From Frigidibacter sp. ROC022 (GTDB lineage: Bacteria; Pseudomonadota; Alphaproteobacteria; Rhodobacterales; Rhodobacteraceae), in NCBI RefSeq assembly GCF_024723735.1, contig NZ_JANQDU010000002.1, forward strand, positions 1 to 64,000: a DNA stretch of 64,000 nucleotides. The letters are read 5' to 3'. The notes below the pieces were generated by a model. It was not told where the DNA came from and did no database searches. It saw only the letters and a program-made list of their open reading frames with translations. Of the stretch, positions 24,059-28,222 are shown piece after piece (positions within the stretch are counted from its first letter, which is position 1; the number at the start of each line of letters is the position of its first letter). The position numbers and the translations under genes are program-made.

Positions 24059-24346
24059 CTAGAGGCCAAGCGCCTTGCGCAGCGCGGCATTGGCGCGGGT
24101 CTGCCAGCCCTTGCCGTCGGCCTTCAGCCGGGCCAGCACGTCGGGGTCGAGGTACATGGTGACGCGCTGCTTCTTCTTCGAGGGCGGAAGCGGCGGCCGG
24201 CCCTGCCCCTTGACCAGGGCAAGGAGGTCGGGGCGTTCGGACATCGGGCGGAACCGGCGAAAATCCTCTTCGGTCAGTTCGCGAACTTCGCCCTCTTCGT
24301 CAATGAGGGGCGCGGGCGCGGTAGTAGGCTTTTTTCTCGCGGTCAT
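24059..24346 (-). CDS. brnA: BrnA-type antitoxin
   Basis: A 95-residue protein with an acidic, extended N-terminal half and a C-terminal ribbon-helix-helix (RVTMYLDPDVLARLKADGKG) followed by GWQTRANAALRKAL, the BrnA/DUF4415 pattern. BrnA neutralises BrnT and represses the operon. Its start lies 47 bases inside brnT, giving a long overlap and tight co-translation. Confidence 0.87.
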   Translation of the reverse strand: MTARKKPTTAPAPLIDEEGEVRELTEEDFRRFRPMSERPDLLALVKGQGRPPLPPSKKKQRVTMYLDPDVLARLKADGKGWQTRANAALRKALGL

Positions 24347-24581
24347 TGGCCTTCCTCAGGTTGATGAGGCGGGGTCTCCCGCCACGCGGTGTCCAGGTGC
24401 AGATGTGCAGCCTGCCATCCAGGTTGCCGACCGAAACGACGCGAACCTCACCATAGTCGCGTCTGCGGTCTTCTTCGAAAGTCGCCGTCTCCCAGTCGAA
24501 CCGGACGATCGCGGCGAAGTCCACGCCATGCTTGGCGCGGTTGCTGCGGCGCTTGGTCTCGTCCCAGTCCCAGTCCCACAT
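24300..24581 (-). CDS. brnT: BrnT-type ribonuclease toxin
   Basis: A 93-residue protein of the BrnT family (DUF497), a RelE-fold ribonuclease that blocks translation. WDETKRRSNRAKHGVDFAAI, the DYGEVRVVSVG strand and LINLRKANDREKKAYYRA at the end are diagnostic. It precedes brnA, the standard order for this toxin-antitoxin system. The promoter region is AT-rich with an ATGCAT-centred dyad. Confidence 0.9.
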   Translation of the reverse strand: MWDWDWDETKRRSNRAKHGVDFAAIVRFDWETATFEEDRRRDYGEVRVVSVGNLDGRLHICTWTPRGGRPRLINLRKANDREKKAYYRARAPH

Positions 24582-24605
24582 TTAATGTATGCATGTTTAA
24601 TTCGC
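24581..24605 (-). promoter_or_regulatory. AT-rich candidate operator-promoter of brnTA
   Basis: The 25 bases directly upstream of the brnT ATG are AT-rich and centred on the palindrome ATGCAT, flanked by TTAA on both sides in an imperfect dyad. BrnA and BrnTA bind an operator at this position in known systems. The exact operator and -10 cannot be fixed by eye. Confidence 0.4.
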
Positions 24606-24692
24606 AAGGGATGCCGGGAGGATGCGGGAGGTGTGGTTAACGGGAGGTGAAAGGGGAGATGGCCGGTGCGGTTGCCGAGGTGCGAAACGGAC

Positions 24693-24744
24693 AGCGGCCG
24701 GCCCGTGGGGGGCGGGTCGGCCGCTGCCCGGCCTGCGGCCGGGC
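24693..24744. repeat. Two tandem GC-rich inverted repeats
   Basis: The first hairpin pairs 24693-24705 with 24713-24725 (13 positions, one G-T wobble, seven-base loop). The second pairs GCCCGGCC at 24726-24733 with GGCCGGGC at 24737-24744 around TGC. They abut directly and sit between brnT and the AT-richer BRCT gene. They may be transcription stops insulating the two, or the boundary of an inserted segment. Confidence 0.55.
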
Positions 24745-24876
24745 GGGAGGGGGCGGAATGGTTTCAGCCTAATATATCCATATCGCAGGTAATCAGTTCC
24801 GATATTCCATCATCATTCGACAATCTTGACATGCCCGCATTTCGTATCTGAAAATCGAGAAAACTAGGAGGCCCTC

Positions 24877-25749
24877 ATGGCTGAACTCGAGCATAACGGT
24901 GTGGAACTGTCACGAATCCATAGACGAAACAATGAGAAGAAGTTCTTTTGTCACTTCACCGGCTTCCTCGAAGGCATTGCTGCAAGTGGCTACGTAGAAA
25001 AAGGTGAGGTTGCCCCTCTGATAGCAGAGTGTGAAGAGTTTGTGCTGCGCGCTTCCGACGGGGACGCATATGACATTATCGAGGATTTTCAGAGCGACCT
25101 TCTTGAACACGCAACCATTGCTGATGCGGCGCGTCTTCGGCTTTCAGAAATCGACCCAACCTGCACGAAGAGCAGTCTGAACCGGTTCCTCGGATTTTGC
25201 AGAGGTATCGTTTGCGATGGACGGATTACACTGCATGAGGCTCAAGGACTGATATCCTACATCGAAAGAAACCCCTCGATAAGAGATGTAGTGGGTGTCC
25301 GCCAGATATTTGTCACATGCGCGGATGCGATAGCCGATGGAATTATTGATGACACAGAAAGCAATGAGATCTGCGATGCCATCGGTCATGTCGTTGGCGA
25401 TTCCTACGGAGACACAGGACTGGCACAAACAGGAGGTGTAGCAAACTTCGAGGAATACAAAATTTCCGACATAAACAGCGATCTTGAGAACAAGAGAGTT
25501 GTTCTTACAGGAAGTTTTTCTGTCTCACCCAGAAGAATAATGGAGGAAAGAATTTCTGGGTTCGGCGCCATTGTTGAACGAGCAGTCACTCGGAAGACAG
25601 ACTATCTCTTCATTGGCGGCAATGCATCGCGCGATTGGATTGAGCTCAATCGGGGAACGAAGATGATCAAATCACTTAAGCTTAGACAGACATCTAATCG
25701 GCCACTGTTTGTATCTGAGCATCAGTTCCTTAGATTATCAAAGGCTTAA
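24877..25749 (+). CDS. BRCT-domain protein with N-terminal helical (TerB-like) repeats
   Basis: A 290-residue soluble protein. Residues 203-287 form a BRCT domain like that of bacterial DNA ligase: NKRVVLTGSFSVSPRRIMEE, then GFGAIVERAVTRKTDYLFIG. The N-terminal 175 residues contain three similar units, near 24-50 (FTGFLEGIAASGYVEKGEV), 101-130 (FLGFCRGIVCDGRITLHEAQ) and 145-170 (FVTCADAIADGIIDDTESNE), each with the pattern G-I-x-x-(D)G-x-I-x-x-x-E, suggesting TerB-like or EF-hand-like helices. TAGGAGG precedes the ATG at six bases. Base composition is far lower in GC than the neighbours (28 of 60 bases in the line at 25261), and its stop lies four bases from the parE stop. Transfer is likely. 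A role in DNA break sensing or defence is inference; no catalytic motif is visible. Confidence 0.75.
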   Translation: MAELEHNGVELSRIHRRNNEKKFFCHFTGFLEGIAASGYVEKGEVAPLIAECEEFVLRASDGDAYDIIEDFQSDLLEHATIADAARLRLSEIDPTCTKSSLNRFLGFCRGIVCDGRITLHEAQGLISYIERNPSIRDVVGVRQIFVTCADAIADGIIDDTESNEICDAIGHVVGDSYGDTGLAQTGGVANFEEYKISDINSDLENKRVVLTGSFSVSPRRIMEERISGFGAIVERAVTRKTDYLFIGGNASRDWIELNRGTKMIKSLKLRQTSNRPLFVSEHQFLRLSKA

Positions 25750-25753
25750 CCCC

Positions 25754-27706
25754 TCAAACATCCAGCTCCTCAACAAACCGCGCGTTTTCCTGGATATACT
25801 GGAACCGCAATTCCGGCTTCTTGCCCATCAGCCGCTCGACCAGATCGCCGGTCTCGCCGCCGTCCTCGTCGTCGATGCTGACCCGGATCAGCTTGCGGGT
25901 CTTCGCGTTCATCGTGGTTTCCTTCAGGTCCTTGGCGTCCATCTCGCCCAGGCCCTTGAACCGCTGCACGTCGATCTTGCCCTTGCCGCCCAGCCCCTTG
26001 GCCAGCCACAGATCCTTCTCGGCCTCGTCCGAGACGTAGAGCCGCTCGGCCCCCTGGGTCAGCCGGTAGAGCGGCGGGCAGGCGAGGTAGAGATGGCCCT
26101 TGTCGATCATCGGCCGCATCTGGGTGAAGAAGAAGGTCATCAGCAGGCTGGCGATATGGGCGCCGTCCACATCGGCGTCGGTCATGATGATGATCTTGTC
26201 GTAGCGCAGATCCTCGACGTTGAACTTGCTGCCCATGCCGGTGCCGAGCGCCTGGCAGAGGTCCGACAGCTCCTGGTTCTGGCCCATCTTCGCCGAGGCG
26301 GCGCCGAGCACGTTGAGGATCTTGCCCCGCAGCGGCAGCAGCGCCTGGGTGGCGCGGTCGCGGGCCATCTTGGCCGAGCCGCCGGCGCTGTCGCCCTCGA
26401 CCAGGAACAGCTCGGTGCCCTCGCGGTTGGTGGCGGTGCAGTCGACCAGCTTGCCGGGCAGGCGCAGGCGCTTGGTGGCGCTCTTGCGGGCGGTTTCCTT
26501 TTCCTGGCGGCGGCGCAGGCGTTCCTCGGCACGGAGCACCAGGAAATCGAGGATCGCCCCGGCGGATTTGGTGTCGGAGGCCAGCCAGTTGTCGAAATGG
26601 TCGCGCACCGCGCCCTCGACCAGGCGGGCGGCCTCGGTCGTGGCAAGGCGGTCCTTGGTCTGGCCGACGAATTCCGGCTCGCGGATGAAGCAGGAGACCA
26701 GGGCGCAGCCGCCGGCGGTCAGGTCGTCGCGGGTGATGTCGCCGGCCTTGCGGTTCTTGACCAGTTCGCCATAGGCGCGGATGCCCTTGAGGATGGCGGC
26801 CCAGAAGCCCTGCTCATGGGTGCCGCCCTCGGGCGTCGGGACGGTGTTGCAATAGGACTGGATGAAGCCGTCCTTCGACGGGGTCCAGTTGATCGCCCAT
26901 TCGACCGAGCCGGGGGTCTGGAACTTCTCCTCGAAGCTGACCTTCCCGGCGAAGGGCCGGTCGGCATAGGCGGTGGCGCCTTCGAGCTGTTCGTTCAGAT
27001 AGTCCGAGAGACCGCCGGGGAAGTGGAAGGTGGCCTCCAGCGGGGTGTCTCCGTCGGGAATCGCGGATTTCCAGCGCAGTTCCACCCCCGAGAAGATATA
27101 GGCCTTGGACTTGACCATCTTCAGCAGGCGGGCGGGCTTGAACCGGTGGCTGCCCCAGATTTCCGGATCGGGATGGAAGGTGGTGGCGGTGCCGCGCCGG
27201 TTGGCGATGCTGCCCAGCTGCTGCAGCGGGCCCTGCGGGATGCCCTTGGAGAACTCCTGCGCCACCAGCTGGCGGTTGCGGGCGACCTCGACGCGCATGT
27301 GGTCCGAGAGCGCGTTGACCACGCTGGCCCCGACGCCGTGCAGGCCGCCCGAGGTCTGATAGGCCTTGCCGCCGAACTTGCCGCCGGCGTGCAGGGTGCA
27401 GTGAATCACCTCGAGCGTCGATTTGCCGGGGAACTTCGGATGCGGGTCGAAGGGCATGCCGCGGCCGTTGTCGCGGATGGTGACGGAATAGTCCTCGTGC
27501 AGTTCGACCTCGATTCGCGTGGCATGGCCGGCCACCGCCTCGTCCATCGAGTTGTCGAGAATCTCGCTCACCAGATGGTGCAGGGCCCGATCGTCGGTGC
27601 CGCCGATATACATGCCGGGGCGCTTGCGGACCGGTTCCAACCCTTCCAGCACCTCGATCGACGAGGAATCATAGCTTTCCATGCCCTGCAAAAGGTCGTC
27701 CGCCAT
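25754..27706 (-). CDS. parE: DNA topoisomerase IV subunit B
   Basis: A 650-residue GHKL ATPase and Toprim subunit. N-terminal markers are EILDNSMDEA, DNGRGMPFDP and SGGLHGVGASVVN. The Toprim part has LFLVEGDSAGGSA and MTDADVDGAHIASL, and the C-terminus is RFKGLGEMDAKDLKETTM. With ParC it decatenates daughter chromosomes. ParE rather than GyrB is supported by RPGMYIGGTDDRALHHL and the short length. The ATG at 27706 gives the usual MADDLL start; two ATGs 12-13 codons upstream are alternatives. None has a strong ribosome site. Confidence 0.95.
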   Translation of the reverse strand: MADDLLQGMESYDSSSIEVLEGLEPVRKRPGMYIGGTDDRALHHLVSEILDNSMDEAVAGHATRIEVELHEDYSVTIRDNGRGMPFDPHPKFPGKSTLEVIHCTLHAGGKFGGKAYQTSGGLHGVGASVVNALSDHMRVEVARNRQLVAQEFSKGIPQGPLQQLGSIANRRGTATTFHPDPEIWGSHRFKPARLLKMVKSKAYIFSGVELRWKSAIPDGDTPLEATFHFPGGLSDYLNEQLEGATAYADRPFAGKVSFEEKFQTPGSVEWAINWTPSKDGFIQSYCNTVPTPEGGTHEQGFWAAILKGIRAYGELVKNRKAGDITRDDLTAGGCALVSCFIREPEFVGQTKDRLATTEAARLVEGAVRDHFDNWLASDTKSAGAILDFLVLRAEERLRRRQEKETARKSATKRLRLPGKLVDCTATNREGTELFLVEGDSAGGSAKMARDRATQALLPLRGKILNVLGAASAKMGQNQELSDLCQALGTGMGSKFNVEDLRYDKIIIMTDADVDGAHIASLLMTFFFTQMRPMIDKGHLYLACPPLYRLTQGAERLYVSDEAEKDLWLAKGLGGKGKIDVQRFKGLGEMDAKDLKETTMNAKTRKLIRVSIDDEDGGETGDLVERLMGKKPELRFQYIQENARFVEELDV

Positions 27707-28036
27707 TGCCGCTGCCCGTTCTTGCTCTTGGTTGGCGGACATCATGGCAGCAGCGACTCGGGCAGGCAATGGGTCCAGCCCTGTCGTTTCCACTCCGCGA
27801 ACGGCAAATGGCGATCCTGCGGCGAAAATTCGGCCATTGACGCCCAGGAAGGGACGATGCAAGGTCACAACCATGGATTGAATGCAGAATCGAAACGCTT
27901 TCCGATTCTGCAAGAGCAGCTTTGCACCCGATACCTGTAGGAAACGACAGGTTGGACTAAATCCTGCCACATTTTGCCACGAAACATGATCCTCGACGGC
28001 AGGGAAAACTTGCCGTGGAACGACAGGACTGAACCG
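27707..28036. other. Divergent intergenic region with three inverted repeats
   Basis: This 330-base gap between parE and a small plus-strand ORF has no convincing gene. It contains three dyads in 135 bases: TGCAGAATCG / CGATTCTGCA (27883-27892 and 27903-27912), ACCTGT / ACAGGT (27933-27938 and 27947-27952), and ACGGCA / TGCCGT (27996-28001 and 28011-28016). AACGACAGG occurs twice (27943 and 28019). It must hold the parE promoter and probably a structured leader for the small ORF. Confidence 0.5.
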
Positions 28037-28222
28037 ATGCAAAACGACCTCTGCAACAAAGCCCGCAACCGCCGCATCTTGGCGCTGGCACGTCTGACCC
28101 GGCGTCGTCTGCGTCATGAGAATGGCGCTGCGCGCTCGCTCCCGGAAATCAAGAGCGCAGAGGTCGGCGCGTTATTCGATACAATCAGTCAGAGGCTCGA
28201 CCAGAGTCCGATCCTGGCCTGA
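28037..28222 (+). CDS. Small basic protein, paralogue of the ORF at 28732
   Basis: A 61-residue ORF starting MQNDLCNKARNRRILALARL. Support: AGGA eight bases before the ATG, an intrinsic terminator about 95 bases after the stop, and an N-terminus that aligns with the small ORF at 28732 (shared KAR, RI, spaced A and L, RR). I recognise no family. The first half is strongly basic, the second acidic, so it could be a small nucleic-acid- or protein-binding factor. Confidence 0.5.
   Translation: MQNDLCNKARNRRILALARLTRRRLRHENGAARSLPEIKSAEVGALFDTISQRLDQSPILA

Follow-up and report, generated by a model that had tools for sequence, protein, structure and literature searches.

The gene under study occupies positions 24877 to 25749 on the plus strand of the window, by which we mean the whole stretch of 64,000 nucleotides that was analysed. 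It looks like a genuine gene and lies between parE and a brnT/brnA toxin-antitoxin pair. The features at the locus are as follows:

24059..24346, minus strand: brnA antitoxin gene, behind brnT (Pfam)
24300..24581, minus strand: brnT toxin gene (Pfam)
24600..25748, no strand: DNA that the relative with the most similar ParE lacks at its parE-brnT junction (approximate, ends not exact to the base)
24826..24855, plus strand: promoter-like pair TTGACA / GAAAAT with a spacing of 18 (one found versus 0.8 expected, the level of chance)
24866..24871, plus strand: ribosome-binding site AGGAGG, read directly, 5 bases before the ATG of the BRCT gene
24877..25749, plus strand: BRCT gene with ATG start, encoding 290 amino acids with two four-helix units and a C-terminal BRCT domain
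24922..25152, plus strand: four-helix unit 1, residues 16-92 (AlphaFold model), homologous to unit 2
25174..25395, plus strand: four-helix unit 2, residues 100-173 (AlphaFold model), homologous to unit 1
25471..25743, plus strand: BRCT domain, residues 199-289 (Pfam and model), with the invariant residues T211, G212, R219 and K262
25754..28117, minus strand: parE, topoisomerase IV subunit B (ORF as listed), the conserved left flank of the hotspot described below

As an earlier reading made from the sequence only had noticed, the gene is much poorer in GC (47.7%) than its surroundings (68.4% and 67.7% in 1-kb stretches starting 300 bases off either side). The AT-rich part of the DNA between parE and brnT extends from about 24760 to 25750. 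The ORF coordinates also confirm that the stop codon of the BRCT gene lies four bases from that of parE, which converges on it from the opposite strand (25749 versus 25754). The toxin-antitoxin pair that was said to sit against the gene was identified as BrnT/BrnA by Pfam, but brnT is 295 bases away, on the opposite strand and pointing away from the BRCT gene. Two adjoining strong GC-rich hairpins are found between brnT and the BRCT gene (24693-24744). In the listed parE ORF, homology to relatives begins only at residue 117-136, so that the true start of parE is probably further in. Among homologues at the same site in other genomes, dN/dS was 0.10-0.11 in all three pairs formed by L003-L005, a comparison that leaves out the window's own copy, and the family is therefore under purifying selection at the parE site.

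Domain architecture and the predicted phosphate pocket

An AlphaFold2 model based on 12 sequences (pLDDT 73, pTM 0.73) places helices at residues 16-92 and 100-173 and the BRCT domain at residues 199-289; a single-sequence model was poor (pLDDT 38) and was set aside. The two helical units are homologous to each other (hhalign probability 97%, E 4e-11), and each appears by eye to be composed of two hairpins. The pattern DG-x-I-x-x-x-E is clear by eye in three of the four hairpins of the window protein and in all four of orf2 of the Vibrio phage K139, a full-length relative. The sequence-only reading had described three TerB-like repeats: its three motif copies correspond to three of the four hairpins, but on the evidence of the model and of hhalign the three-repeat arrangement was replaced by two homologous four-helix units. 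Kinship to TerB was likewise abandoned for want of profile-level support. The TerB family (PF05099) was matched by none of 15 family members at E <= 1, in a scan whose HMMER filters remove most hits with E over 0.1, and hhalign against a profile of 15 TerB sequences, which is of low diversity and thus of limited power, yielded a probability of at most 8%, over one hairpin. When the N-terminal profile was searched against PDB sequences, no match had an E-value under 0.2, and the Foldseek and VIA-align rows for the whole-protein model were mostly BRCT chains. Relatives of about 200 amino acids consist of unit 2 and the BRCT domain and are devoid of unit 1.

The C-terminal domain was correctly assigned as a BRCT domain of the DNA-ligase kind. 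It exceeds the curated cut-off of Pfam BRCT (PF00533) with 24.5 versus 21.3 bits over residues 203-266, and all 15 family members scanned gave a BRCT match at E <= 1. When a BRCT profile was compared with the PDB, the BRCT domain of human RFC1 was the best match (E 5e-11), followed by E. coli-type LigA (2owo, E 5e-10). BRCT was the only domain that the Pfam scan of the window protein returned, with no enzymatic domain, in agreement with the earlier statement that a catalytic motif is absent. The protein thus shares its BRCT type with LigA and RFC1, but unlike these it has no ligase or AAA+ domain and carries its BRCT joined to two four-helix units.

Four residues, T211, G212, R219 and K262, are invariant in all 15 rows of the family alignment. 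They align with the 5'-phosphate pocket of yeast Rfc1, in which Thr166, Gly167, Arg174 and Lys209 bind a DNA 5' phosphate according to PMC9359705. T211, G212 and R219 are spaced as in Rfc1. Across a longer loop, the GTK lysine of human RFC1 is the counterpart of K262 in the alignment, K262 being located 51 residues past T211 versus 43 for the lysine of yeast Rfc1. By alignment, the window BRCT domain therefore has the T, G, R and K of an RFC1-type pocket, which makes DNA-end binding a specific prediction. Judged from these four residues and the profile similarity, the protein probably grips cut or phosphorylated DNA ends. Binding to ends would not by itself make the protein a defence factor, because the BRCT domains of LigA and RFC1 serve ligation and clamp loading.

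Acquisition of the gene and the insertion hotspot behind parE

The gene is rare and patchily distributed. In a sample of 394 genomes of the family, 11 contained a match, namely seven full-length copies including the window's own, two half-length copies and two LigA-like sequences, whereas 383 had none. In the genus of G080 the gene was present in one of four genomes and three had no match; in the Roseovarius genus, to which the genome of L004 belongs, nine of 84 genomes carried it, one copy having an internal stop, and 75 were without a match. A sample of 398 genomes from the phylum contained, besides the window's own copy, at least three full-length, five half-length and two two-unit-like relatives, the latter (G687 and G513) each having a pair of unit-like matches in a single frame; 381 of the 398 genomes gave a match of some kind, nearly all rows being LigA-type BRCT domains that were set aside. 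The gene follows parE in six genomes (the window and L003-L007) and is low in GC in all six. Five of its six close homologues lie at parE in the same orientation, and the sixth, L002, is by eye beside leuA. None of 200 bootstrap trees contained a branch that set the copies from the parE site apart from all others.

Of the other 40 genomes searched, the one nearest by ParE (89% across the final 199 residues) has no match to the gene and represents an empty site, with 34 bases separating parE from a brnT homologue, compared with 1172 in the window. The simplest reading of these sequences is that the gene arrived in the interval separating parE from brnT, without the toxin-antitoxin pair as a companion. 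As the brnT homologue already follows parE in this gene-less relative, the pair is no sign of joint acquisition, and the part of the sequence-only reading that took it as such a sign has to be given up. Horizontal acquisition itself, which that reading also proposed, is well supported because of the empty site, the patchy distribution with seven full-length copies in 394 genomes, and the relatives in phages and plasmids. Had all relatives carried the gene in synteny by vertical inheritance, this would have spoken against acquisition; the gene does recur at parE in six genomes, but 383 of 394 and 75 of 84 genomes lacked a match.

Many of the Roseovarius-genus genomes carry a different AT-rich gene directly after parE. 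We compared the parE flanks of the best 30 of 39 matching genomes (40 searched), the gyrB flanks of the same 30 genomes and, family-wide, the parE flanks of the best 30 of 41; flanks shorter than 600 bases were dropped (1/30, 1/30 and 2/30). A drop in GC of at least 0.10 just after the gene was present in 18 of 29 Roseovarius-genus parE flanks versus one of 29 gyrB flanks (Mann-Whitney p 4e-6), the reference being the gene body, taken over 600 bases for parE and only about 230 for gyrB. Family-wide, 13 of 28 parE flanks had such a drop, the window's own included. Across genera, parE was seen to be followed immediately by short, AT-rich insertions comprising one or two genes (L033-L062 and L185-L214), some with cargo that Pfam does not recognise.

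The cargo includes defence genes. Among 20 proteins from 18 loci of the genus, with ORFs picked by eye and one scanned locus (L036) having no GC drop, eight exceeded a Pfam cut-off (HEPN_RiboL-PSP, guanylate cyclase, WYL, beta-lactamase-like, TIR_2, SocA/Panacea, MT-A70 and BglII) and 12 passed none. Family-wide, three of ten did so (AbiTii, HEPN_AbiU2 and DUF4145). PADLOC matched four of the 12 cargo proteins submitted, namely the TIR protein of L054, the WYL protein of L040, the AbiTii protein of L211 and, weakly, a protein of L034. No defence-type domain was found in ten proteins from the gyrB flanks, which were picked by eye as protein-like from 29 ORFs. An MT-A70 methylase and a BglII-type endonuclease form a compact restriction-modification pair after parE in one genome (L062:73-1427), and the WYL protein of L040 has a sub-threshold match to TerB.

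With the same site, differing cargo in relatives and an empty site, the position behind parE is an insertion hotspot. Published core defence hotspots likewise combine a fixed place with changing defence cargo; the parE site differs from these in that its AT-rich cargo is short, amounting to one or two genes, with no transposon gene by eye and only four bases between the stop codons in the window. For some CAST elements, parE is a TniQ-directed site, and insertion of this type was considered and rejected on the same two grounds, the lack of a transposon gene among the cargo ORFs (by eye) and the spacing of the stop codons. A search of the window's own genome for TniQ had no hit, but neither did its controls, so that it carries no weight. 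A GC-rich palindromic repeat ends many of the inserts on the right (L003-L005, L034, L035, L039, L042, L054, L058 and L059). It was discarded as an attachment site, being a dispersed repeat: with one mismatch allowed, it has 2-29 copies in each of the five genomes searched (G396, G446, G472, G465 and G456), versus 0-3 for the reversed pattern. No element ends were seen at the parE site, and the cargo may be exchanged by homologous recombination in parE and in the flank on the far side. Three Roseovarius-genus loci (L107, L108 and L111) show a second recurrent site, by eye flanked by LysE-like exporter and YebC-like genes, which holds a more distant homologue of the BRCT gene; the copy in L111 has an internal stop.

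Relatives in phages, plasmids and defence neighbourhoods

The window protein matches the phage protein family phrog_3989 over its full length (E 2e-33, residues 13-286 on positions 7-290 of 296), a family that has a catalogue number and no recorded function. Nine phage records match, eight of them from K139/kappa-type Vibrio phages and one from a Sulfurimonas phage. K139 orf2, alias kp3 in phage kappa, is 26% identical over 94% of the length and likewise consists of two units and a BRCT domain. By annotation its order is cI-orf2-glo-int. Like the window gene it is an accessory gene of a mobile element, but one within a prophage operon, between cI and glo, whereas the window gene is a lone chromosomal gene. 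This place between cI and int is a published prophage antiviral hotspot (PMC9122126). The word BRCT is absent from the main text of that paper, and 'brct' does not occur in the available portions of the K139 papers PMC4870250 and PMC3986222. Phage relatives such as L020:5980-6603 and kp3 of phage kappa (AB374228.1) carry the annotation of a DNA polymerase or of a putative NAD-dependent DNA ligase, probably only on account of the BRCT domain. In the IMG/VR contigs L063, L066, L068 and L070, a regulator precedes the gene, with intervening ORFs in L066, L068 and L070, and an integrase lies downstream in L068 and L070 (all by eye). The relative in L064 differs from these, being situated by eye at a prophage end. 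No relative was found when viral contigs were scanned with another homologue, and no near match to an enterobacterial-type prophage copy was found in E. coli genomes.

Two relatives are physically linked to known defence components. On a Hymenobacter plasmid (L021:857-6585), a half-length relative starts 64 bases past the Shango operon SngABC (profile E-values of 1e-36 for SngA, 8e-167 for SngB and 2e-206 for SngC) and is possibly a fourth Shango gene. In G074 (L101:7823-10162), the BRCT module forms the C-terminus of an ORF resembling the Hhe / PDC-S37 helicases (2e-92 / 3e-138); this is a single ORF without the N-terminal region of the helicase, by eye amid transposase and integrase remnants. 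The window gene has no such partner next to it: its neighbours are parE, brnT and brnA, and the adjacent SngA, SngB and SngC by which Shango is recognised are absent. The relative on a Cupriavidus plasmid (L215) shows no fusion. In many neighbourhoods the gene is alone, sometimes amid housekeeping genes, and has no constant partner. The PADLOC candidate PDC-S48 is weakly similar over unit 2 and the BRCT domain (E 2e-5, positions 228-373 of the 411-position model), leaving positions 1-227 unmatched by the window protein. It weakly matches three of four relatives tested, K139 orf2 at 3e-8, and the helicase-fused relative is not matched. With GAPS2 (NCBIfam NF047932) the likeness is limited to the BRCT domain, and at 15.6 bits versus a cut-off of 330 the protein is not a member.

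Possible functions of the BRCT protein

We favour the reading that the gene, acquired horizontally, encodes a protein that recognises phosphorylated DNA ends and protects against phages as a single-gene system, and give it a probability of about 0.5. The setting supports a phage-related role because of the defence genes in the parE hotspot, the place of K139 orf2, the Shango neighbour and the Hhe-like fusion, and from this neighbourhood the protein may help to block phages, although we came across no report of a phage assay for any family member; a DNA-damage or phage-sensing role had been put forward in the sequence-only reading as reasonable, though unproven. According to this model, the gene was inserted between parE and brnT, where genomes of the family carry differing short AT-rich genes, defence genes included. 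The RFC1-like BRCT domain would most likely dock on double-stranded DNA at ends or junctions that bear a 5' phosphate, such as are exposed by incoming linear phage genomes and by intermediates of phage replication or packaging. The paired four-helix units are most likely a dimerisation or adaptor surface and could couple the recognition of ends to a block, either by occluding them or through a recruited nuclease or helicase. A broader proposal, which we put forward tentatively, is that of an end-sensing single-gene defence family that acts by way of its paired helical units, is shared by temperate phages and chromosomes and is used elsewhere as a targeting module (Hhe fusion, Shango neighbour), together with a family-wide, post-parE defence hotspot that works by exchange of cassettes with one or two genes.

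The protein might instead be a prophage-derived helper of DNA metabolism that, during lysogeny, assists in ligating, recombining or circularising phage DNA and that has survived in the chromosome by chance. A BRCT domain nearest to those of LigA and RFC1 would suit this role, as would an integrase close to the gene in phages, by annotation in K139 and by eye in L068 and L070. We regard it as unlikely, since by eye many chromosomal relatives have no phage gene nearby, although L105 looks phage-like, and since defence genes occupy the parE site in related genomes and selection at that site is purifying. The phage protein Gam protects DNA ends, and a Gam-like function would consist in shielding ends from RecBCD/AddAB, thereby favouring mobile DNA over the host. 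Such a protein would be oddly placed beside Shango and in a chromosomal hotspot with defence genes; even with the predicted pocket for a 5'-phosphate end and the carriage by temperate phages in its favour, we assign this function a low probability.

It is less probable again that the BRCT domain reads a phosphorylated protein, for example in a kinase-based signal, and not DNA. In proteins with tandem BRCT domains this same pocket is used to bind phosphopeptides (PMC9359705), and an ORF that by eye resembles a Ser/Thr kinase is found some 3 kb away from one half-length relative (L116:11384-14053). However, the BRCT domain is single and has its best profile matches in RFC1 and LigA, and by eye no kinase recurs as a neighbour among the neighbourhoods listed. 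Very improbable, finally, is a vertically inherited repair gene of odd base composition that was lost from most lineages. The position at parE common to six genomes, with low GC in each, would be in keeping with this, and the well-supported branches of the tree are compatible with a single origin of that position. Against it stand the 383 of 394, three of four and 75 of 84 genomes without a match, the empty site in the nearest relative by ParE, the close homologue located elsewhere and the bootstrap trees, none of which united the parE copies.

The domain parts of the favoured anti-phage protein are of known kinds, and the literature searches made brought up no function for the family. Among the publications listed as matches, judged by title and the start of the abstract, none dealt with a helical-BRCT phage protein or a defence hotspot at parE, which is not proof of absence. 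If our reading is right, a lone BRCT domain, a module best known from ligases and clamp loaders, would act as a bacterial immune sensor of DNA ends, and the pocket residues make the end-sensing idea directly testable. The few hundred bases past parE in this bacterial family may then be a simple hunting ground for new small defence genes.
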